A DNA stretch of 64,000 nt from Nitzschia sp. pyKryTriq1 (taxonomy: Eukaryota; Bacillariophyta; Bacillariophyceae; Bacillariales; Bacillariaceae): NCBI GenBank assembly GCA_956465555.1, contig OY101115.1, positions 3,100,001 to 3,164,000 on the forward strand, read 5' to 3'. A program made the position numbers and the translations under genes. Shown here piece after piece: positions 3,012-61,554 of this stretch (positions are counted from its first letter, which is position 1; each line of letters opens with the position of its first letter). The notes under the pieces were generated by a model, which was not told the DNA's origin, did not search any database, and worked only from the letters and a program-made list of their open reading frames with translations.

Positions 3012-3559
3012 TGATGATTCGAAGGAATCGAATATTGAGACACGCGGCGAATGATTCTGTATAATTCTGAAGGATTCGGAGAGAATCGAAGACCCCCGGA
3101 GAACATCGGAGAAACGATATGAAGAACGACACACGTTTGACCGAAAGTACATGAGAAGAAAATAGTAGAGTAGAAGTGCTTATAATTTTAGTAAGCGGAC
3201 ATTACGCTAAAGAGACACGAGAGTTTGTAACACGCTTCGAAGCGAAAGGTTAAGACGAACCTCGTTTGAAGCAACGATCCGTTACTGAAATTGATCAACA
3301 GATAAGGGCTTGAACACAGAGCTAAGGTAAAAAGAGCTTGATGATTCGAAGGAATCGAATATTGAGACACGCGGCGAATGATTCTGTATAATTCTGAAGG
3401 ATTCGGAGAGAATCGAAGACCCCCGGAGAACATCGGAGAAACGATATGAAGAACGACACACGTTTGACCGAAAGTACATGAGAAGAAAATAGTAGAGTAG
3501 AAGTGCTTATAATTTTAGTAAGCGGACATTACGCTAAAGAGACACGAGAGTTTGTAACA
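3012..3559. repeat. 221-bp direct repeat pair between the transporter genes
   Basis: Two copies, 3012-3232 and 3339-3559, appear identical over 221 bp with an offset of 327 bp and a 106-bp spacer. Both lie in the shared upstream region of the divergent transporter pair. Neither copy carries a convincing gene; short open frames in it simply repeat. No target-site duplication or terminal inverted repeat is evident, so I call it a local segmental repeat, possibly a transposon fragment. The rest of 2472-3937 shows no gene. Confidence 0.85.
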
Positions 3560-3937
3560 GACATGTTCAATGTTGTGATGGTGAATGGTGACGAATGAAT
3601 CATCTGAATCTTCTTGCTACACTACGGTAGTACCAGCAGCTCGGGTGAGAATGTCAGAAAAAATGTGAACGGGACAAACGCGCGCGAAACGGGAACGTGA
3701 GGAAGTCTGCCATACCACCAACCGCAACTCCCATTAAAAAAACACAAACCACAAACAATGCTTTCCAATTTCCAACACAACTTGAAGCAAAAAACGATCC
3801 GTGGGAAGAAGTGAGAAAGACAACAGAAACGAGAGAAGAACAGCTCGTCTCGACCGCAACTTGTACATTCGTAGAAGCTAAGCACCGAGACTTCACGGCT
3901 GTGTAAAAAAGCTGTCGCCAGCAGCAGCAGGATCAGC

Positions 3938-22182: not shown

Positions 22183-23439
22183 AGCGGAATTTCGAAGCTC
22201 CTCCATGCTACGGTCCTCAGAACGGTGTTGTGAGGCATCTAAAGCAGTGAAGTCAAACTAGAGGAATGCCAATCGAAAACACACATAGTAGTCTTATCTC
22301 CTCGTGATACTCTCCTGCCGTTTAGTGGTCGTCGCATCTTTTCCTTTTCTCCTTACACGTAGCTACACGTAGCTACACGTAGACTAGACAATTTGTAGAC
22401 CACCACACGCCCTACCTGCGATCCTATTATTTGCTCCAGCAGCAGTGAGGGGGGGGGGCTTTTTTGTACAGTAGCTTCACTGGTGAGGGCAAATCGTTTC
22501 TATTTTTGTATTGTCTCCTCCAAGTTCAACTCTTGCATCGCACCACCCCTCTTTGGTAGCTACCGGCACCCCTATCATAGACGAGAGCTGCTGGAGCAAC
22601 GAGTGTTCGCTATAGTACTATAGTATCATGCGCTACCACCAAGTACGTACCGGTATCGAACATCCCACCACCACAACTTCTTCTTTGTACTACTAGTATG
22701 GTGGAGTGGTCTACTTCTTGTTTCGCAGGTATATGCGTTGTTCCTCGCTCTCTCTCTCTCTCTCTCTCTACTAGTATCGGTAGAGAAGAGAGATGAAGTT
22801 GAGAGAGGGTAGGAGTAGAGAGCAACTGACTACGAATATCGAACCGCCTGTAGACGAGAACACATACGTACCGGTACAGTACACGTACGCAGCAAGAAGA
22901 CTACATACTGTATTAGCGACTGTAATTTAAAGATCGGCGTGCTTGATTTCATGTCGTAGCATCGTCTTCAATATGTCGCATGCTTTCGCGCGTGATTTCT
23001 TGCGCAGGCGAAGAAAAAATGAGGGAACGTGCGGTCCGCAAAAAATTTACAAGAACGTTCAGTACAAAATTTCACGTAGGATGAAACCCACGTCATTTTT
23101 CGAGCCGAAGAACCGCATCCAAGCAACGCAGATTTTATAGGCTATTAGTCTACCGGTACTGTAGGTCAAAGCCATCCGACAATCAACCATGCTGATGAGA
23201 AGGTTTTCGTCCAAAATAAAGAAAAGGCCCCGTACCCAGTCACATTTTTAGTGCTCTTACCTCGACTCTAAAGAGGGCTTGTCATCTCATTTTTGCAATA
23301 CAAGCAGCAGGTAAGAACGATCTGAGAAGATCATTTGATTTTACGTTACTGTAAGCTAAAGACTCAGACGACCTTATTTCCCAAACCTGTCACGTTGATT
23401 CAACGTTCATATAGTTTGATTGCCATAGACATTCAGAAG
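22183..23439. other. Upstream region of the MetH gene, simple sequence
   Basis: Contains three tandem copies of a 10-bp CTACACGTAG-type word (22358-22385), a G-run at about 22448-22459, a CT-run near 22746-22769 and GTAC-rich words. A possible 5'-UTR intron of the next gene lies at 23311-23436 (GTAAGA donor, TTCAG acceptor), ending three bases before the MetH ATG. No gene is seen. Confidence 0.5.
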
Positions 23440-26400
23440 ATGGCGCCCCCTACACCCAAAAAGCTTTACCCTAGGCTAAAATTCAGTTATGATGACGTCG
23501 AGCCCACGCCTGCCTTGGAGCCTCCCCTTCCTGTATCCGATGCAGCACGCAATCATGTTCCGAATCCTTACATGAACTCCCAACTTGTACATGAGAAGAT
23601 CGCTGCCGTCCGGGCCAAGTCGACTCATCCCAACAAGGATCTCAACATCGACTTTGCTCAACCAGCGACTTTGTACCCCGAGTCGTTCCCCTATTTTGTG
23701 CGTGGGCGCGACAGTCTTCGTGAGTACATCACGTCTTTGTTCACGAGCCAGATCGCAATCTACGACGGTGCGATGGGAACCATGATCCAGAACTACGCCA
23801 AGCGGAATAAGTTGGAGGAAGAAGAATACCGAGGAGAGCGCTTCAAGGATTGGACGTGCAATGTGAAGGGCAACAACGACATGCTGAGTGTTTCGCAGCC
23901 TAAGATTATCTCTGATATTTACAGAGCGTATCTTGAAGAAGGCGGCTCCAACTTGATCGGAACGAATACCTTCTCGTCGACTACCATTGCCATGGCTGAT
24001 TATGAGATGGAGCCGTACGTGTACGAGCTGAACTACGAGTCTGCCCGTTTGGCGCGTGAGGTTTGCGACGAGATGACCGCGAAGGATCCTACGAAGCCCC
24101 GTTTTGTTGTTGGAGCCATCGGCCCGACGAATCGTACTGGTTCTATTTCTCCTTCCGTCGAGGATCCAGCTGCCCGCAACGTGACTTTCGATGAGTTGGT
24201 AGAAGCGTACTTTGAGCAGATTGTTGGTCTCGTTGACGGTGGATCCGACGTCTTGATGGTTGAGACGATTTTTGATACCTTGAACGCTAAGGCTGCGTTG
24301 TACGCCGTCGGGGAATACCTCGAGATGAGTGGACTTGACATCCCAGTCTTCGTCTCTGGAACTTTGGTGGACCAGTCTGGTCGTACCCTGTCGGGTCAAA
24401 CGGGGGAGGCATTCTATGTTTCTATCCGCCACGCCAAGCCTATGTGCGTCGGTCTCAACTGCGCATTGGGTGCCATTCACATGAAACCTTTTGTGGAACG
24501 GCTGTCGAAGTGCGCCGAATGTTTCGTCCATGTGTACTCGAACGCTGGTCTTCCCAACGCCATGGGTGGATACGACGATACTCCAGCGACTATGGCCGAG
24601 CAGAATAGGGTATTCTTTGAGAATGGCTGGCTGAACATGGTCGGAGGTTGTTGCGGTTCCACACCTGCTCACATCAAGGCTATCCGAGAAGTTGCTGTGA
24701 ACTTCAAGCCTCGCAAGCTTCCTGATGTTGGACGTCCCAAGATGTGGCTTTCTGGTCTGGAGGACTTGGTCGTTGACGACGTTCACAACCACCTTGGACT
24801 TCCGTTCTTGAATGTAGGTGAACGTTGTAATATTGCCGGGTCTATCAAGTTCAAGAAGCTGATGATGGCTGGCGACTACGAAGCCGCCATGGACATCGCG
24901 AAGAAGCAGGTTGAGGATGGAGCCCATGTCATCGATATCAATGTTGACGATGGTATGCTTGATGGCGTTGCAGCCATGCAAAAGTTTGTTAAGATCGCCG
25001 TCACCGATCCCGAGATTTCGAAAGTCCCCTTCATGTTGGACGCTTCCAAGTTTGAAATTGTGATGGCCGGTTTGAAGTGGTGCCAGGGAAAGCCCATTGT
25101 CAACTCCATCTCGTTGAAGGTTGGTGAGGATCTGTTCAGGGAGCATGCTACTCTGCTTCGCAAGCACGGAGCTGCCGTTGTTGTGATGGCTTTTGACGAG
25201 AAAGGTCAGGCCGCTACGGAGGAGGATAAGGTCCGCATCTGCAAGCGCTCGTACGACATTTTGGTGAATGAAGTGCGCTTCCCTCCTGAGGATATCATCT
25301 TCGATCCTAATGTTTTGACTATTGGTACTGGAATGGAGGAACATGCCAACTATGGTGTTGACTTCATCAATGCTACGAAGAGGATCAAGGAACTGTGTCC
25401 GTACGTTAAGATCAGTGGTGGAATCTCGAACTTGTCATTTGGATTCCGTGGAGTAACCAAGGTTCGCGAATCCATTCACTCGGTATTTTTGCACCATGCG
25501 ATCCTTGAAGCTGGAATGGATGTTGGTATCGTGAACGCCCACGAAATGCTTGATTGTGAAGAACTCGAACCGGATATGAAACTCTTGTGCGAAAATTTGA
25601 TCTTTAACAAAACACCAGATGCCACTGAAGACATGCTCACGCGTACTTCCTACGAAAGGGCTGTAATTGATGCCAAGAAAAAAGGACATCCACCTCCCCG
25701 AAAGCCACGCGGTCCGATGCCAAACCTCCCAAGGCTAAAATTCAGTTACGATGACGTCGAGCCCACGCCTGCCTTGGAGCCTCCCCTTCCTGTATCCGAT
25801 GCAGCACGCAATCATGTTCCGAATCCTTACATGAACTCCCAACTTGTACATGAGAAGATCGCTGCCGTCCGGGCCAAGTCGACTCATCCCAACAAGGATC
25901 TCAACATCGACTTTGCTCAACCAGCGACCTTGTACCCCGAGTCGTTCCCCTATTTTGTGCGTGGGCGCGACAGTCTTCGTGAGTACATCACGTCTTTGTT
26001 CACGAGCCAGATCGCAATCTACGACGGTGCGATGGGAACCATGATCCAGAACTACGCCAAGCGGAATAAGTTGGAGGAAGAAGAATACCGAGGAGAGCGC
26101 TTCAAGGATTGGACGTGCAATGTGAAGGGCAACAACGACATGCTGAGTGTTTCGCAGCCCAAGATTATCTCTGATATTTACAGAGCGTATCTTGAAGAAG
26201 GCGGCTCCAACTTGATCGGAACGAATACCTTCTCGTCGACTACCATTGCCATGGCTGATTATGAGATGGAGCCGTACGTGTACGAGCTGAACTACGAGTC
26301 TGCCCGTTTGGCGCGTGAGGTTTGCGACGAGATGACCGCGAAGGATCCTACGAAGCCCCGTTTTGTTGTTGGAGCCATCGGCCCGACGAATCGTACTGGT

Positions 26401-29400
26401 TCTATTTCTCCTTCCGTCGAGGATCCAGCTGCCCGCAACGTGACTTTCGATGAGTTGGTAGAAGCGTACCTTGAGCAGATTGTTGGTCTCGTTGACGGTG
26501 GATCCGACGTCTTGATGGTTGAGACGATTTTTGATACCTTGAACGCTAAGGCTGCGTTGTACGCCGTCGGGGAATACCTCGAGATGAGTGGACTTGACAT
26601 CCCAGTCTTCGTCTCTGGAACTTTGGTGGACCAGTCTGGTCGTACCCTGTCGGGTCAAACGGGAGAGGCATTCTATGTTTCTATCCGCCACGCCAAGCCT
26701 ATGTGCGTCGGTCTCAACTGTGCTTTGGGTGCCATTCACATGAAACCTTTTGTGGAACGGCTGTCGAAGTGCGCCGAATGTTTCGTCCATGTGTACTCGA
26801 ACGCTGGTCTTCCCAACGCCATGGGTGGATACGACGATACTCCAGCGACTATGGCCGAGCAGAATAGGGTATTCTTTGAGAATGGCTGGCTGAACATGGT
26901 CGGAGGTTGTTGCGGTTCCACACCTGCTCACATCAAGGCTATCCGAGAAGTTGCTGTGAACTACAAGCCTCGCAAGCTTCCTGATGTTGGACGTCCCAAG
27001 ATGTGGCTTTCTGGTCTGGAGGACTTGGTCGTTGACGACGTTCACAACCACCTTGGACTTCCGTTCTTGAATGTAGGTGAACGTTGTAATATTGCCGGGT
27101 CCATCAAGTTCAAGAAGCTGATGATGGCTGGTAACTACGAAGCCGCCATGGACATCGCGAAGAAGCAGGTTGAGGATGGAGCCCATGTCATCGATATCAA
27201 TGTTGACGATGGTATGCTTGATGGCGTTGCAGCCATGCAAAAGTTTGTTAAGATCGCCGTCACCGATCCCGAGATTTCGAAAGTCCCCTTCATGTTGGAC
27301 GCTTCCAAGTTTGAAATTGTGATGGCCGGTTTGAAGTGGTGCCAGGGAAAGCCCATTGTCAACTCCATCTCGTTGAAGGTTGGTGAGGATCTGTTCAGGG
27401 AGCATGCTACTCTGCTTCGCAAGCACGGAGCTGCCGTTGTTGTGATGGCTTTTGACGAGAAAGGTCAGGCCGCTACGGAGGAGGATAAGGTCCGCATCTG
27501 CAAGCGCTCGTACGACATTTTGGTGAATGAAGTGCGCTTCCCTCCTGAGGATATCATCTTCGATCCTAATGTTTTGACTATTGGTACTGGAATGGAGGAA
27601 CATGCCAACTATGGTGTTGACTTCATCAATGCTACGAAGAGGATCAAGGAACTGTGTCCGTACGTTAAGATCAGTGGTGGAATCTCGAACTTGTCATTTG
27701 GATTCCGTGGAGTAACCAAGGTTCGCGAATCCATTCACTCGGTATTTTTGCACCATGCGATCCTTGAAGCTGGAATGGATGTTGGTATCGTGAACGCCCA
27801 CGAAATGCTTGATTGTGAAGAACTCGAACCGGATATGAAACTCTTGTGCGAAAATTTGATCTTTAACAAAACACCAGATGCCACTGAAGACATGCTCACG
27901 CGTACTTCCTACGAAAGGGCTGTAATTGATGCCAAGAAAAAAGGACATCCACCTCCCCGAAAGCCACGCGGTCCGATGCCAAACCTCCCAAGGCTAAAAT
28001 TCAGTTACGATGACGTCGAGCCCACGCCTGCCTTGGAGCCTCCCCTTCCTGTATCCGATGCAGCACGCAATCATGTTCCGAATCCTTACATGAACTCCCA
28101 ACTTGTACATGAGAAGATCGCTGCCGTCCGGGCCAAGTCGACTCATCCCAACAAGGATCTCAACATCGACTTTGCTCAACCAGCGACTTTGTACCCCGAG
28201 TCGTTCCCCTATTTTGTGCGTGGGCGCGACAGTCTTCGTGAGTACATCACGTCTTTGTTCACGAGCCAGATCGCAATCTACGACGGTGCGATGGGAACCA
28301 TGATCCAGAACTACGCCAAGCGGAATAAGTTGGAGGAAGAGGAATACCGAGGAGAGCGCTTCAAGGATTGGACGTGCAACGTGAAGGGCAACAACGACAT
28401 GCTGAGTGTTTCGCAGCCTAAGATTATCTCTGATATTTACAGAGCGTATCTTGAAGAAGGCGGCTCCAACTTGATCGGAACGAATACCTTCTCGTCGACT
28501 ACCATTGCCATGGCTGATTATGAGATGGAGCCGTACGTGTACGAGCTGAACTACGAGTCTGCCCGTTTGGCGCGTGAGGTTTGCGACGAGATGACCGCGA
28601 AGGATCCTACGAAGCCCCGTTTTGTTGTTGGAGCCATCGGCCCGACGAATCGTACTGGTTCTATTTCTCCTTCCGTCGAGGATCCAGCTGCCCGCAACGT
28701 GACTTTCGATGAGTTGGTAGAAGCGTACTTTGAGCAGATTGTTGGTCTCGTTGACGGTGGATCCGACGTCTTGATGGTTGAGACGATTTTTGATACCTTG
28801 AACGCTAAGGCTGCGTTGTACGCCGTCGGGGAATACCTCGAGATGAGTGGACTTGACATCCCAGTCTTCGTCTCTGGAACTTTGGTGGACCAGTCTGGTC
28901 GTACCCTGTCGGGTCAAACGGGGGAGGCATTCTATGTTTCTATCCGCCACGCCAAGCCTATGTGCGTCGGTCTCAACTGCGCATTGGGTGCCATTCACAT
29001 GAAACCTTTTGTGGAACGGCTGTCGAAGTGCGCCGAATGTTTCGTCCATGTGTACTCGAACGCTGGTCTTCCCAACGCCATGGGTGGATACGACGATACT
29101 CCAGCGACTATGGCCGAGCAGAATAGGGTATTCTTTGAGAATGGCTGGCTGAACATGGTCGGAGGTTGTTGCGGTTCCACACCTGCTCACATCAAGGCTA
29201 TCCGAGAAGTTGCTGTGAACTACAAGCCTCGCAAGCTTCCTGATGTTGGACGTCCCAAGATGTGGCTTTCTGGTCTGGAGGACTTGGTCGTTGACGACGT
29301 TCACAACCACCTTGGACTTCCGTTCTTGAATGTAGGTGAACGTTGTAATATTGCCGGGTCCATCAAGTTCAAGAAGCTGATGATGGCTGGTAACTACGAA

Positions 29401-32043
29401 GCCGCCATGGACATCGCGAAGAAGCAGGTTGAGGATGGAGCCCATGTCATCGATATCAATGTTGACGATGGTATGCTTGATGGCGTTGCAGCCATGCAAA
29501 AGTTTGTTAAGATCGCCGTCACCGATCCCGAGATTTCGAAAGTCCCCTTCATGTTGGACGCTTCCAAGTTTGAAATTGTGATGGCCGGTTTGAAGTGGTG
29601 CCAGGGAAAGCCCATTGTCAACTCCATCTCGTTGAAGGTTGGTGAGGATCTGTTCAGGGAGCATGCTACTCTGCTTCGCAAGCACGGAGCTGCCGTTGTT
29701 GTGATGGCTTTTGACGAGAAAGGTCAGGCCGCTACGGAGGAGGATAAGGTCCGCATCTGCAAGCGCTCGTACGACATTTTGGTGAATGAAGTGCGCTTCC
29801 CTCCTGAGGATATCATCTTCGATCCTAATGTTTTGACTATTGGTACTGGAATGGAGGAACATGCCAACTATGGTGTTGACTTCATCAATGCTACGAAGAG
29901 GATCAAGGAACTGTGTCCGTACGTTAAGATCAGTGGTGGAATCTCGAACTTGTCATTTGGATTCCGTGGAGTAACCAAGGTTCGCGAATCCATTCACTCG
30001 GTATTTTTGCACCATGCGATCCTTGAAGCTGGAATGGATGTTGGTATCGTGAACGCCCACGAAATGTTGGCAATCAGCGAAGTTGATCCAGACCTTCTGG
30101 AAGCCTCCGAGGAACTGATCTTTAACAAAAATCCTGACGCCACCGAAAAGATGCTCGATCTGACAACAAAGGAGAAGGCAGCCATGGAAGCCAGAAAGAC
30201 GGGTGGCACTTCAGAGGTCAAACAAGCGTCTTGGAGAGACTTCGAGCCCAAAAAACGTCTTGAGCACGCCTTGATCAATGGTATCTCAGAGTTTGTGAAC
30301 GCAGATGTCGAAGCCGCAAGGCAAGAGGCGGATAAACCTCTTGATGTTATCGAAGGGCCTTTGATGGATGGTATGAATGTTGTAGGAGACTTGTTTGGTT
30401 CCGGAAAGATGTTCTTGCCGCAAGTTATTAAGTCTGCTCGTGTCATGAAGAAGGCCGTTGCCTATTTGCTTCCTTTCATGGAAGAAGAGAAGAAAAGGAA
30501 GATGCTTGAAGATGGACTCGACCCTGCAGATTTTGACGAGAATGACGATTCAAACTATGCTGGCAAAGTTCTCATGGCAACAGTCAAAGGAGATGTTCAC
30601 GATATCGGAAAGAACATTGTAGCCGTCGTTTTAGGATGCAACAACTACAAGGTTTACGACATCGGCGTCATGTGCTCGTGTGAGCTTATTTTGGAGAAGG
30701 CGAAGGAATACAAGGTCGATGTCATTGGACTTTCTGGCCTTATCACTCCTTCTTTGGATGAGATGGTGGTCGTTGCGAAGGAACTCTCTAAGGGTGGTTT
30801 CACACAACCAGTTATGATTGGTGGTGCCACTACTTCCAAGATGCACACTGCGGTCAAGATCGCTCCCAATTACTTCACAGCTGCCCACCCTGTCATTCAT
30901 GTTCTCGATGCTTCCCGTTCTGTCACCGTGGTTTCCTCTCTCCTTGGTGAAAACAAGGCAGGATTCGTGGAGGATCTCGATGAAGAGTACGAAGAAATGC
31001 GTGAAGACTACTACGCTGGTTTGGAAGACCGTTATTTCCTTACATTCGAGCAAGCAAAGGCACAGAAACTGTCGATCGACTTTGACAAAGCGCCTCCGGC
31101 CCCTGTGCCAAACAAGGTGGGAACCACTGTCATTGACACTGTCAAGGTGAAGGATATTGTACCCTACATCGACTGGAATCCATTCTTCCAAACATGGGAA
31201 TTGCGCGGTCGTTATCCCAATCGTGGCTACCCCAAGATCTTCCTGGATCAAAATGTTGGGTCAGAAGCCAAGAAATTGTTCGATGATGCGCAGAAGATGA
31301 TGCACGACATCATCGCGGACGGATCGATGACTCTAAAGGGTATCGTTGGTCTTTTCCCTGCCAACCAATCCGACGATGGCGAAGACGTTGAAATCTTCGA
31401 GACCGAAGCCGATCGTGAGGCCGGCAAAGTAGCTGCCAAGTTCTGTATGTTGCGTCAACAAGCAGAAAAGGAATCCGACGATCCTTATCTCTCTCAAGCT
31501 GACTACATCGCCCCCAAGGGATACAGGGACCACATCGGTTTCTTTGCCGTATCTACCTTTGGGTGCGATGCTCTTGTCAAGAAGTATGAATCTGAGAATG
31601 ATGATTACTCCAAGATTATGGCGCAGGCCCTCGCGGATCGTTTCGTCGAGGCCTTCGCCGAGTATTTGCACCGGGAAATCCGTATCGACATGTGGGGCTA
31701 CGCCGCCGGCGAATCGCTCGACGAGGCTGATCTATTGAAAATCAAGTACGACGGTATTCGACCTGCTCCTGGGTACCCATCCCAACCTGACCACACCGAG
31801 AAACGCACGATGTGGGATGTTGTCAAGGTTGAGGAGCAGGCTGGTATTCAACTGAGTGATTCCCTAAGTATGATTCCCGCTGCATCAGTTTCCGCTTTGG
31901 TTTTCGCCCACCCACAGTCTGCGTACTTCGCCGTCGGCCAGATTGGCAAAGACCAAGTGGAGAGCTATGCCAAGCGCAAGGGCATGGAGTTGGATACATG
32001 CGAGCGATGGTTGTCGCCCATTCTCAACTACGAACGCGATTAA
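23440..32043 (+). CDS. metH: Cobalamin-dependent methionine synthase with three tandem catalytic heads
   Basis: An uninterrupted frame of 2,867 residues from ATG 23440 (MAPPTPKK); usual MetH is about 1,230-1,270. It transfers a methyl group from methyltetrahydrofolate via cobalamin to homocysteine. Residues 12-703, 765-1456 and 1518-2209 are nearly identical copies of the homocysteine-methyltransferase plus folate-binding module. Each has GAMGTMIQ, zinc ligands in GLNCALGA and [11 protein letters not shown] (Cys341/404/405, 1094/1157/1158, 1847/1910/1911), [11 protein letters not shown] and [12 protein letters not shown]. After head 3 come the cap, the B12 domain with DVHDIG (ligand His2387) and the AdoMet reactivation domain with [14 protein letters not shown], all once. 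Heads 1 and 2 end in identical linkers finishing [14 protein letters not shown]. No intron is seen inside the coding region. Assembly error must be excluded. Confidence 0.93.
23473..25731 (+). repeat. MetH head repeat, unit 1 (2259 bp)
   Basis: First copy of the in-frame 2,259-bp (753-codon) unit: 2,076 bp of catalytic head (23473-25548) plus a 183-bp linker (25549-25731). It differs from units 2 and 3 at a few sites, for example T at 23490, a TTC codon at 24703-24705 (TAC in the others) and a GAC codon at 24874-24876 (AAC in the others). Confidence 0.95.
25732..27990 (+). repeat. MetH head repeat, unit 2 (2259 bp)
   Basis: Second copy, head 25732-27807 and linker 27808-27990. The linker looks identical to that of unit 1. 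Private differences cluster in the first half, for example C at 25929, C at 26160, C at 26470 (Phe to Leu) and A at 26664. Confidence 0.95.
27991..30066 (+). repeat. MetH head repeat, unit 3 (2076 bp, no repeat linker)
   Basis: Third copy of the head only. Identity with units 1 and 2 stops abruptly after the HEM codons at 30066, where the sequence changes to the version that leads into the cobalamin domain. It has two private silent changes near 28342 and 28380. Confidence 0.95.
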
Positions 32044-32346
32044 GTTCCTCCAAGCATGTTGGATACAATTGGCCGACCACTCGGCGGAAATTCGCTACTG
32101 TAATCTCTCCCATAAATCACACCTAATACATATCCATATAAAAATACTTCTATAAACACCGCAACTATACTTGTACCAGGTAAAGTCATCTGAACTACAG
32201 GTAACCGACTCACTCATCCGCGGGAAGTCAGCTCCATCAGAGTTCCGTTGCGAAATAGTAGTAGCAGAGACAGACAGAATCCGAGGAGACACTCTCGCTT
32301 TCCTCAGGCAAGGGTCATCTAAGCGGTTCCCTCAGGCATGGGTCAT
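32044..32346. other. 3' flank of MetH with 27-bp tandem duplication
   Basis: Short spacer between the convergent MetH and coiled-coil genes. A 27-bp imperfect tandem duplication spans about 32303-32356 and runs into the last codons and stop of the minus-strand gene. Confidence 0.7.
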
Positions 32347-33072
32347 CTAAGCAGTTGTACCATCGTTGGTGAGGCCGTAAAATAGGTCCATCTGCTCTTG
32401 CCTGCGGCCGGCGAAGGCTCCCGATAGGTCAGCGTCGCCAGTCCCGCCTGGTCCGACAAGAGACCCAGGAGCCTCGTCAAACGCGCTACGGAGCAAATCG
32501 CGACGGGCGTGCTCCTTATCCTCGGTTCCTTTGCCGTTTCGCATGAACTGGAGTCCCTCATGGAAGGACTGCTGGAGTATTGGTTCGCTTGGAAGCTTCG
32601 GAGCGGCTACCGCCTGAATCGCTTCAACCGAGAGCAACGAGAGGACCTTGTCATGGCTTTCGTACTGCAAGTAGCCTGCCAGTTCGTTGCTCGCCTCCCC
32701 CATCTCTTTCGCGTACTGAAGGGTGCCCTCATTGTCGTTGTCGCTGAGACCTTTGATGTGTCTGGCACACGCTTCGAGTGCCTTGCGCTCGCGGTCCATG
32801 ACTCCTCCCAGTCGTGCTTTCTCGTTTCCAAGCATGTCTCTCTTGCGACTTAGCGTTCCCAACGCTTCATGGTCCGCACGAATCTGGGTCAAGAGAGCGG
32901 CCTGTTCCTGTTTGAGTTGACGCAGACTCCCCTGGACCTTTCCATGATTGTCTTGTGCAACTTGCTTGGCGTTGCGGAAGTTTTCAAGGTCGACGCTCAG
33001 TGCATTGAACTGAGCCGTGACTGAGTGGGATTGCACCAAACTACTGTTCGTACTTGCGGCAAAGTTGTTCAT
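32347..33072 (-). CDS. Coiled-coil protein of unknown function
   Basis: A single exon codes for 241 residues from ATG at 33070-33072. Residues about 20-130 are heptad-like and charged (LRQLKQEQAALLTQIRADHE, RKRDMLGNEKARLGGVMDRE), predicting a long coiled coil. The C-terminal third is less regular, ending in a Gly-rich segment and RRQEQMDLFYGLTNDGTTA. No membrane segment or targeting peptide is evident, and I do not recognise the family. Consistent length, an ATG start, absence of internal stops and protein-like composition support a real gene. Its 3' end overlaps a 27-bp tandem duplication in the DNA. Confidence 0.7.
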   Translation of the reverse strand: MNNFAASTNSSLVQSHSVTAQFNALSVDLENFRNAKQVAQDNHGKVQGSLRQLKQEQAALLTQIRADHEALGTLSRKRDMLGNEKARLGGVMDRERKALEACARHIKGLSDNDNEGTLQYAKEMGEASNELAGYLQYESHDKVLSLLSVEAIQAVAAPKLPSEPILQQSFHEGLQFMRNGKGTEDKEHARRDLLRSAFDEAPGSLVGPGGTGDADLSGAFAGRRQEQMDLFYGLTNDGTTA

Positions 33073-50274: not shown

Positions 50275-53269
50275 TCACCGTGGAAGACACGCAGTACAGC
50301 AATCACCCGATTCAACACACATACCGCAGTTTGCATAAATCTGAATCCCTTTTCCGCACATTTCACTGGGAATGCTGGCATTGTCGTCGAAACCATTTCC
50401 GAAGACCGAGAAGAATTGCAGATTTTCGAGATTGCCCACCGCACTTGGTATTGTGCCAATGATTTGATTGTAGTCCACCTGATAGAAAACCAGCTGAGAC
50501 ATCGTTCCGATTTTCGTGGAGATACCACCGGTAAGAATGTTATGGTCAAGGTCGATAAATCGAAGGGAGGTCGAATTGTACAACTCCTCGGGAATGGGCC
50601 CCGAAAAGACGTTCCTGTCGAGGTCTAGTTTTTCTAGATTCTTCATGGAACCAAGCCAACTTGGGATCCATCCAGTTAATGTATTTCCGTCCAAATCCAT
50701 TTCTTTCAAGTACTCGAGATTATAAAGCTCGTTTGGTATCGATCCTCTCAAGTTGGATTCATCTGGAGTCAAAAGAACAAGAGTGTGAAATACATGGCGG
50801 AGATAAGCAACTATGGTCTGTCTCAGGGGGAGGGGGGGGCTTACCTAAGTTGAGCTTTTGAACTTGCTGGAGATCGTCACAGGTGACACCTCCCCATTCG
50901 CACTCATGAGAATCGCTCAAAAAACTGTTTCTGCTGCATGGCATCGAAGCATCCCTGCTGCACTTTGTCCACCCGTCACCACCTGTGGTGAAATAGAGAA
51001 GAGCAAGAATGTATCGTTGCAGTAGATTTTCGTCATCAGGACAGAGGTGCATGTCATCATCGTCCACAATCCAGTTATAGGCCCGATATGCTGGGTGTTC
51101 AACATCGTCGAATCTTTCGGCAGCCAAACCAGACAGCGCTACTACTGTCGCACCAATTTGGAGCTTGCGAGCTTCGTACAGCATACCGCTACACGGCAAG
51201 GTTGGAGCCATGCTTTCACTGGGATGGTTTGAAGGAGCGTTGGTTAGTCCGATGGATGTCCCCATGCTTGGTGTGGCGGTTGGTCCGGTGGATGGTCCCA
51301 TGCTTGACGCAGCTGTTGCTCGAGCCGTTGGTCCCGTGGTTGGAGAAGTGGTTGGCTCAGTCGTTGGTCTGGTCGTGGGAGCGGCACTCAACTCCATAGT
51401 TGGTCCAGTCGTTGGTTCCGTGGTAGGCCCGGCACTTGCTCCAATAGTTTCTTCTGGTGTAGGTCCAGCTGTTGGCTCCGATTTAGGTCCAGCGGTGGGT
51501 CCGGTGGAAGGTAAGGGGCTTGGACCAGTGGCTGGACTGCTAGACGAGGTCGTCGAGGCATCCGAAGGCACCAACGAAGGCGAATCAGACGGGAAGGAGG
51601 ACATTATAGTTTCACTTGGGAAACTTTCCGAAAATTCTACTGGTAGCTGGGTCGGCACCAACGATGGTGAAATCGATTTCGAAGGGGGCTTGGTAATTGG
51701 TGCGAGACTTGGCTCGGGAGCTGGATGTGCGATAGGACTATCAACTCTAGAAGGCATTCCAAATGCAGGTGGGAGTGAAGGGGGAATCAGGCTGGGCGCA
51801 TCTGAAGGAATCAGACTTGGTGTATCCGAAGGAATGAATGACGGGGCATCTGATGGTATGAATGAAGGGGCATCTGATGGAATGAATGACGGGGCATCTG
51901 AAGGAATCAATGACGGAGCATCTGAAGGAATCAATGACGGGGCATCTGACGGAATGAATGACGGGGCATCTGATGGTATGAATGAAGGGGCATCTGATGG
52001 AATGAATGACGGGGCATCTGAAGGAATCAATGACGGGGCATCTGAAGGAATCAATGATGGTGAATCGGATGGTATTGACGAAGAGATATCTGAAGGAGTT
52101 TCTGTAGGCACTCCTGTAAGTTGACTTGATGGCGTCAATGTTGGGCTTGAAGAAAAGGCGGTTGGAGATGCAGTCAGAAAAAATTTTGAAGGGGCCTGGG
52201 TAATAGGTGCCAGACTTGGCTCAGGAAGTGGGTCAACTTTGTCGAAATCAGGTACCAAAGTAGGAGCAATCGAAGCGACTGAAGGAACATTTGTAGGCTC
52301 TTTCGTAGGTTCTCTCATTGGATCCACAGTCGGGATAAAAGTGGGATTCGAAAAAAAGACATCGGTCGGGAGTGCCGAAAGCTCCATTGATGGGTCTGGT
52401 GATGGAGAAATTGAAGGAATGTCCGACTCCCGAAGGGATGGCTCACTAGTTTGCATTCCAGTGGGACCAGTCGATGCGACATCTGTAGGAGAGTCAGTAG
52501 GCCCTCCTGTAGGCTCCCTCGATGGCACCACTGTCGGGCTAGAAGACGGCGCAACTGGAAAGGCGGTTGGAGAAGCAGTCAACGAATATCTCGAAGGGGT
52601 CCTGTTAGTTGGTGCAAGGCTTGGCTCTGGAGCTCGGACCGTAACAGGAAAATCATTTCTATCCTGGTTTGGGGATACAGTTAAGGATGGTACTGAAGGA
52701 GTCCCGGTTATTGGCGCAAGACTTGGCTCGGGAACTCGGACCGTGACAGGAGATCCTTCAACTCTGTCCTGGCTTGGGAATAGAGTGAAGGAAAATACTG
52801 AAGGAGTCTCGGTTGTTGGTGCAAGACTCGGCTCTGGAGCTCGGACCGTTACAGGAAAATCAACTCTGTCATGGCTTGGGGATGGAGTGAAAGGAAATAC
52901 TGAAGGAGTCTCGGTTATTGGTACAAGACTTGGCTCTGGAGCTCGGACCGTAACAGGAGACTTTTCAACGCTGTCCTGGCTTGGGGAAGCAGTTAGAGAA
53001 TATCTCGAAGGGGTCCGGGAAATTGGTGACAGACTCGGCTCTGGAGCTCGGACCGTGACCGGGAAATCCACTCTGTCTTCACCCTCAGAAGAATCCACGT
53101 TATTCGACCCATCAAGATGTCCGCAATCAAATGGAAGAGTGAAATCCGATTCAAGATCAACATCCTGAGAATCGGAATAACTGAATTGACACGGATCTCT
53201 GGACTTTGAAGCATGAACTACGCTGTGGGAAGCGAGGAGAACAATGGAAGACAACTTCAACCACAACAT
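50275..53269 (-). CDS. Secreted mucin-like LRR protein with three families of Ser/Pro/Thr repeats
   Basis: Two exons, 50845-53269 and 50275-50762, with an 82-bp GTAAG...CCAG intron, give 970 residues. A signal peptide (MLWLKLSSIVLLASHSVVHA) leads into low-complexity repeats: about five units of 36 residues around PVTVRAPEPSLAPIT; a Ser/Thr/Pro section; about twelve 8-residue units of APSFIPSD/APSLIPSD; then GPT/EPT repeats. A globular part follows (CSGMLYEARKLQIGATVVAL onward) with cap motif CEWGGVTCD and about six plant-type LRRs (LRGSIPNELYNLEYL, LTGWIPSWLGSM, FSGPIPEELYN), ending in cysteines GMCVESGDCCTAC. No membrane segment follows the LRRs. A heavily O-glycosylated wall or adhesive protein is plausible from composition only. 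Confidence 0.85.
51780..52075 (-). repeat. 24-bp coding minisatellite (SDAPS[F/L]IP) with 120-bp higher-order period
   Basis: About twelve units of 24 bp, each coding PSDAPSFI/PSDAPSLI-type octapeptides. Unit variants recur every five units: the stretch starting near 51841 matches that starting near 51961 at an exact 120-bp offset, so a five-unit block was itself duplicated. Confidence 0.9.
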
Positions 53270-59995: not shown

Positions 59996-60299
59996 CGCAC
60001 AACGTGTCATGGGAAACGGATCCAGTCATTCTTTGATCTACGAGTACGGGGAACGGACGGGAGAAAACAAGCTATAAATGAGTATTCATGAAAGATACAC
60101 ATACCGTTCCAACTGTAGCAGCCAGGCGGCTCTTGATATGTAAAACAAGTATACATAGCAACACTTTCATCTGTAAACGTACGTACCTCTCTTCTTTCTG
60201 TGGCACGTGATTGATACTAGCCATCACGTCGTTGATTGTTGACTTTCAGAAAGTGATGCTTCGGCTCCTCGGGTGCATCGCTATAAGACAGAAGCGTAA

Positions 60300-60499
60300 N
60301 NNNNNNNNNNNNNNNNNNNNNNNNNNNNNNNNNNNNNNNNNNNNNNNNNNNNNNNNNNNNNNNNNNNNNNNNNNNNNNNNNNNNNNNNNNNNNNNNNNNN
60401 NNNNNNNNNNNNNNNNNNNNNNNNNNNNNNNNNNNNNNNNNNNNNNNNNNNNNNNNNNNNNNNNNNNNNNNNNNNNNNNNNNNNNNNNNNNNNNNNNNN
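60300..60499. other. Assembly gap (200 N)
   Basis: Exactly 200 undetermined bases; a round number suggests a placeholder rather than a measured size. Confidence 1.
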
Positions 60500-60710
60500 G
60501 CCCGGTCTCAAACCGCCTCGTTGATCCGACCGGATCCAGGAAGGAAGCCACCAGGTGTGCCGAACATGCAGAACAATAACGCTTCTTCACCGCATTGACA
60601 GCCAGCACGGCAAAAGCGCTCCGAGACGGGTCCGCCTCATAGACTCTTTCATCCACTGCATCTTTGAGTAGCACCTCAAACAAGCATTCAACCCGCTTCA
60701 ATGCCAGAAC
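60500..60710 (-). CDS. Possible exon running into the gap, unknown protein
   Basis: A minus-strand frame reads LALKRVECLFEVLLKD, then EADPSRSAFAVLAVNAVKKR, YCSACSAHLVASFLDPVG and STRRFETG before meeting the gap. An AG that could serve as a splice acceptor (TTTCTAG) lies at its upstream end near 60711. The composition is protein-like, but no start, partner exon or family could be found. It may be part of a gene or transposon interrupted by the gap. Confidence 0.3.
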
Positions 60711-61554
60711 TAGAAACAATAGACAATAGCCGACTGCACTTGAAATTGTCCACCCAGACGATCGTGTCGAAGAAAAAATTCTCGTGGATACACAGACAAA
60801 TCGCTCAGTCTCTGCCCCGAAAACCGATTATTGCACGGCCAATGCTGGTCGTAGAGAGCTCCGGATAACATGCGTGAGATTTTCATACTTTCAACGCCCA
60901 TGAGCATCAACAGGCCTCCTATCGATCAATACATTTTCGTGTTTTTACGTCCCAGAGCATGGACGGGTCATGTTAAAAGCTCGGCTGGAAGCGCAAGTCT
61001 TCCAACTCGCCAGAAGAAAGCATCCGCGGCGAGACCGATCAACATACTTCATCGAATATTCGATGCATATCCCAACATACACCCCGCGACAGGAATGCAC
61101 AATAGCCAAGAGAGTGAAATGAATAATTCGTTCGTAAACACACACTTTCTCACCACCCATTCAATCGAGGAAGAGTGGGCACCACCCACTTTCGCTCCGA
61201 ACGATTTCCTTTACACCCACGAGTTCAAATGTGAATCATAGGAAGCTCTGCCTTCAGATCAAGAAGCAAATACAGCGACAAGTGAACACCGAAACTCTTC
61301 AACCGCTAGATAGTGATCAATCATTGGGAGATCGTTTTCCACCAAGCGCGGTACCGGTGAAAAGTGCCGCCTCTCACCATCGAAGCGAGGAGTCAGTTAA
61401 CACACGTCATGGAAAAGACAACACGACTCACTCGGGACACTCGAGAAGTCCAGTGACACACCTACTATTAGTGGCTTGGTTCCTCGCTCGGTTCCTTGCG
61501 GCGGTTAATCAAGTCCATTCCATCTGTGACCTTGTATCGTTGTATTGATGCCAA

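Follow-up and report, generated by a model that had tools for sequence, protein, structure and literature searches.

Three homocysteine/folate heads in front of a single B12 half in a predicted diatom methionine synthase

A single open frame in the window, the 64-kb stretch of Nitzschia sp. DNA analyzed here, is predicted to encode a cobalamin-dependent methionine synthase (MetH) variant with three substrate heads. The three-head layout looks real and unusual. The account that we put forward, with belief and doubt in about equal measure, is that of a real nuclear gene in which the Hcy:Fol half was multiplied to three in front of one Cap:Cob:Act half, by way of a two-head ancestor, such that one B12 would be served by the extra sites.

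One open frame with three Hcy:Fol heads and a single B12 half

The frame lies on the plus strand and is stop-free throughout (23335-32043); it is preceded by an in-frame stop at 23323, has its first ATG at 23440 and terminates at 32043. The complete coding frame (23440-32043), delimited by the open frame and Pfam matches, specifies a three-headed MetH-like protein of 2,867 aa and 318 kDa; the mass computed from Met 23440 is 317.7 kDa, and a first-pass annotation of this DNA gave roughly 310 kDa. A direct repeat runs through the frame in three copies, in phase and at spacings of 2259 and 2259 bp, and self-comparison at an offset of 2259 gave 4,343 bp matching at 99.5%, well above chance. Across the whole frame, Pfam returned S-methyl_trans and Pterin_bind three times each and B12-binding_2, B12-binding and Met_synt_B12 once each; four more weak matches all fell below the curated cut-offs. 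Frame, repeat and Pfam matches together confirm the earlier description of one frame with three Hcy:Fol heads at an exact 2,259-bp spacing and one B12 half.

Comparison of the copies divides the gene, all on the plus strand, into unlike parts. Head 1 opens with a unique N-terminus of ten residues (23440-23469), unlike the starts of heads 2 and 3, and continues into a homogeneous block (23470-25548; repeat and copy comparison, AlphaFold2 model) that holds an N-terminal extension, the Hcy domain and most of the Fol domain; the repeat unit takes in this extension of about 95 aa. The block is followed by tail A and a linker (25549-25728; also delimited by the MTR alignment and the AlphaFold2 model), that is, the Fol end and then a stretch of 18 residues. 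Head 2 has its own homogeneous block (25729-27807) and tail A with linker (27808-27987), and the linker peptide PPPRKPRGP occurs twice, at aa 751 and 1504. The homogeneous block of head 3 (27988-30066) runs into tail B (30067-30225; copy comparison and head 3 model), which comprises the head 3 Fol end and a short Fol:Cap linker. The remainder (30226-32040) is a single Cap, B12-binding and reactivation half, assigned by Pfam, by its motif and by the match to human MTR, which covers residues 1632-2902 of the 2,902-aa frame (1597-2867 from Met 23440), i.e. head 3 and the C-half.

The sequence features by which MetH enzymes are recognized are all found. The Hcy domain (PF02574) with its three cysteines is present in three copies, and the cysteines (341/404/405, 1094/1157/1158 and 1847/1910/1911) are the same in all heads; those at 341/404/405 are invariant across a 42-row alignment, and by homology we take them to bind zinc. 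The Fol, or pterin-binding, domain (PF00809) is found in three stretches, the Cap and B12-binding domains carry the DxHxxG motif (DVHDIG, aa 2385), and the AdoMet-binding reactivation domain (PF02965) scores 366.9 bits, with RPAPGYPS at aa 2774. The order Hcy-Fol-Cap-Cob-Act is found in one chain from head 3 to the C-terminus, with two extra Hcy-Fol heads in front. One head per B12 domain is usual in MetH but does not define it.

The heads were compared with 75 bacterial MetHs at the 209 aligned columns that 98% or more of these enzymes conserve. Thirty of the columns are altered in at least one head; at 24 the three heads share one change, and the remaining six fall at or past head position 696, within tail or linker sequence, four of them being slips of the alignment into the linker. 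Inside the block, no head deviates alone at a conserved column, and the five motif stretches that were compared are identical in the three heads. The first-pass annotation had held that the cysteines and folate-site motifs are kept in every head and that none looks dead, and the identical cysteines and compared motif stretches bear this out. Judged by their motifs, all three heads look intact, the catalytic work of the extra heads being putative.

Near-identical head blocks and diverged Fol tails

The copies of the block of about 2.06 kb are 99.5-99.7% identical, with 6-10 pairwise differences per 2,058 nt and a silent-site divergence of 0.9-1.5%. Twelve sites vary among the three copies within 23491-25548, copy 1 being the odd one at four, copy 2 at six and copy 3 at two; two more silent sites, with copy 1 odd, lie at the left edge of the block (23472 and 23490). 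Nine of the twelve changes are silent, the other three being replacements (F/L, F/Y and D/N); the probability of three or fewer replacements in 12 under neutral change is P = 0.0018. This silent bias speaks against a neutral tandem expansion, in which the layout would be real and translated but only head 3 would matter, heads 1 and 2 being tolerated passengers of recent unequal crossing-over whose copy number may vary between strains. The bias could, however, stem from alleles or from single-head ancestors, and neutral expansion is favored by the divergence of just 0.3-0.5% between the blocks and by the identical tails of heads 1 and 2. We regard it as the main rival and a serious one, if somewhat unlikely. 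The low block divergence and the identical tails indicate that at least the third copy is young or freshly homogenized.

Every head also contains a 622-aa open reading frame on the minus strand (23476-25344, 25735-27603 and 27994-29862). Though open in three copies, these antisense frames are probably a shadow of codon use in the conserved frame.

The blocks end at a sharp edge (25548/25549 in head 1), past which heads 1 and 2 continue into tail A and head 3 into tail B. Tail A and its linker are identical in heads 1 and 2 (180/180 nt), whereas tail A matches tail B at 83 of 159 nt. The first 45 codons of the two tails encode 22 identical residues, ten by way of the same codon, with a dN of 0.46 and saturation at silent sites. 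With saturation in the tails against 0.9-1.5% at silent sites in the blocks, the split between the tails is far older than the most recent common copy of the blocks, and the idea that the three copies are plain duplicates was rejected because tails A and B differ. A tail A fragment aligns to human MTR across the conserved LCE-LIFNK-PDATE stretch, as does tail B. Alignment and model thus point to tail A as a long-diverged Fol end; a hidden intron or a junk joint is unlikely, since tail A has a match in human MTR and supplies the end of the Fol domain in the model. That tail A is still a good Fol end despite its saturated silent sites is a second point against neutral expansion, although this conservation could predate a recent fusion. 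By GC3, tail A (0.43, over 60 codons only) differs from tail B (0.57) and the blocks (0.60). A foreign origin of tail A by codon use is unsupported, its codon score of -1.16, again from 60 codons only, being intermediate between -1.07 for the blocks and -1.20 for tail B.

The two tails also bear on the reliability of the assembly. The copies come from a single assembly and differ at allele-like levels, and a third head could come from two haplotypes of a two-head gene; the true number of heads might then be one or two, the assembler having joined alleles or looped through a repeat. Yet the in-frame period is exact, twice, and the stutter of one gene is excluded as the source of tail A because both tails match methionine synthase and are strongly diverged from each other. 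Moreover, the only run of N in the 64-kb window (60300-60499) lies 28 kb downstream of the array. This run is exactly 200 N, a scaffold gap of a size typical of modern long-read scaffolding, whose reads could span the head array. On this evidence we consider an assembly or haplotype artifact improbable.

The surrounding window

Ten chosen neighboring frames, compared with Pfam, included a ubiquitin-conjugating enzyme, Cox11, a pyruvate-carboxylase-like protein, ornithine carbamoyltransferase and others, a set that fits a eukaryote. About 260 bp downstream of the gene a 28-bp unit occurs twice in tandem (32302-32356), reaching into the end of a convergent ORF (32347-33072). At the left of the window, two identical 221-bp direct repeats (3012-3232 and 3339-3559) are set 106 bp apart; the right copy is immediately followed by GACAT (3560-3564), which also occurs 20 bp ahead of the left copy (2987-2991). 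The pair is perhaps a very small terminal-repeat element. At 51783-53077, arrays of 24-bp and approximately 105-bp tandem repeats lie within a Ser/Pro/Thr-rich minus-strand ORF (50759-53269) that, by its look, may encode a repetitive surface- or wall-type protein, with a start that resembles a signal peptide by eye. The GC content of 60001-61000 is 0.38, a value that may partly reflect counted N.

Predicted structure of the heads and linkers

Residues 1-872, comprising head 1, tail A and the start of the next head, were modeled with AlphaFold2 from the 42-row alignment. The Hcy:Fol body of head 1 is predicted confidently as far as about residue 750, apart from local dips, and includes two closing helices from tail A (711-721 and 728-748); the model of head 3 with tail B has an equivalent helix pair at 615-625 and 632-651 of the fragment. 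In Foldseek, the top match of the head 1 model was the human N-half, with target-normalized TM scores of 0.95 and 0.96 for two human entries. Hcy:Fol is described as a rigid body with a flexible linker to the C-half in two reports (PMC10567725; PMC13376404), and a rigid body on a mobile linker makes the N-half a plausible repeat unit.

The linkers are predicted to differ in kind. In the head 1 model, residues 761-872 fall below 50 pLDDT, their last part being the start of a cut-off head, and the start of head 1 is below 50 pLDDT at 1-47 and 71-89; by comparison with that start we infer a flexible inter-head stretch of about 90 residues. Segment 742-857 is 15.5% proline. At the head 3 Fol-Cap junction only 653-660 of the fragment fall below 50 pLDDT. 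By a simple chain estimate that takes no account of excluded volume or of how bulky the heads are, the effective concentration would be about 25 mM for a 16-residue tether and about 1 mM for 100 residues, which would favor head 3 roughly 25-fold over a head on a 100-residue linker. A short Fol3-Cap linker beside inter-head linkers of about 90 residues should thus favor head 3, and the heads are unlikely to be equal even if all are active. The tie of the Cap domain to head 3 by a short linker is a further point on the side of neutral expansion, though heads 1 and 2 could, as modeled, meet the tethered B12 domain.

Proposed origin and working of the gene

For the gene multiplied through a two-head ancestor, as we prefer to read it, the starting point would be a single-head enzyme; the methionine synthase of Thalassiosira pseudonana, at 1,359 aa, is near the length of one head plus the C-half here, which makes a single head the likely ancestral state. 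A two-head state may have followed, either because the head was duplicated or because a head became fused to the front end of a second MetH copy. At the junctions, tail A is followed by a ten-residue stretch and then an ATG (25717 and 27976) just upstream of the block start, an order that resembles what the attachment of a head, together with its linker, to the start of a second MetH would leave. This fits an ancient two-head state that was homogenized afterwards as well as a fusion, at a more recent date, with a diverged paralogue. The blocks would later have been homogenized, and the third one gained, by unequal crossing-over or gene conversion; the identity of copies 1 and 2, which extends through tail A, appears to mark a further recent duplication or conversion.

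The ATGs just ahead of the head start at both junctions also raise the prospect of isoforms: in addition to the giant protein, or in its place, the locus might make a normal MetH of 1,355 aa, either by starting internally at the ATG of 27976 (MPNLPRLKF...) or by inter-head splicing. By the usual Kozak rule, the ATG context at 23440 (AAGATGG) looks better than that at the junctions (CCGATGC). The promoter scan used a bacterial consensus and was set aside, favoring neither side. The product from 27976 would have about the length listed for the T. pseudonana enzyme (1,359 aa; PMC4523565, Table 1), and alternative splicing has been reported for the human methionine synthase mRNA (PMC4775819). Altogether we think an isoform gene very improbable.

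In the enzyme that we propose, with three heads in one chain, the short linker would bring the Cob domain mostly to head 3, and the flexible inter-head linkers, each about 90 residues long, would put heads 2 and 1 within its reach as well; one B12 would thereby gain extra homocysteine/folate sites. Extra heads would bring a gain only where turnover is held back by the wait for substrate at head 3. A stronger version, in which selection maintains three tethered Hcy:Fol bodies around one common B12 domain, with concerted evolution and more methionine per scarce B12, we hold very tentatively and judge rather unlikely. The first-pass annotation likewise proposed that three heads could feed one cofactor domain in an alga dependent on external B12, a reading of which the layout is the supported part.

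MetH is the textbook example of a cofactor domain that has to visit several partner domains, and B12 is limiting for many algae. With a natural enzyme of three heads per cofactor, one could test directly what limits turnover, access to substrate sites or the chemistry of the cofactor. Should the extra heads be neutral, the gene would still show that in-frame repetition of the Hcy:Fol body leaves it unbroken, and it is a clean record of old divergence in the tails and recent homogenization in the blocks.

Comparison with known systems

Relatives were sought in several collections. Viral contigs held no relative of a single-head query or of a query spanning tail A, linker and head. Eighty prokaryotic loci out of 533 relatives were compared, heads being judged by frame length alone: 75 contain a single frame of 1,227-1,306 aa, a size that corresponds to a MetH with one head; five, from Aquimarina, gave just a frame of 333-336 aa and were left out of the alignment. 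In these five loci (L044, L058, L062, L069 and L074) the short frame carries the Hcy motif and the tblastn match extends to query residue 1354-1356, so MetH there looks split, with a separate Hcy gene. Among the matches listed from nine genomes reached through these loci and from 299 of one phylum (267 with PF02574), the longest open frame was 1,382 aa, so that by length none has several heads; bacteria tell little about algae. The first-pass annotation knew of no described MetH of this layout, and the titles and starts of abstracts covered in the literature, a scope mostly outside subscription journals, contained none.

Human MTR (9ssp, 4ccz) and Thermus MetH (8g3h, 8ssc) have the same domains in the same order as head 3 and the C-half, but here Hcy:Fol is present three times rather than once, with long flexible linkers predicted between heads and with two kinds of Fol tail. 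The T. pseudonana methionine synthase (protein 693), listed in Table 1 of PMC4523565 at 1,359 aa with a conserved domain from 85, matches one head plus the C-half in length, N-terminal extension included, and would, from this tabulated length alone, have a single head. A diatom precedent for three tandem catalytic repeats per chain, by analogy, is CDCA1, the cadmium carbonic anhydrase of Thalassiosira weissflogii; as given in PMC4413181, its three near-identical catalytic repeats lie in one polypeptide and the full-length protein has about three times the activity of one repeat. The CDCA1 repeats are 80-82% identical, compared with 99.5-99.7% for the block DNA here, and the enzyme is unrelated: each of its repeats has its own active site and metal, whereas the three heads of the predicted MetH would share one cofactor domain.
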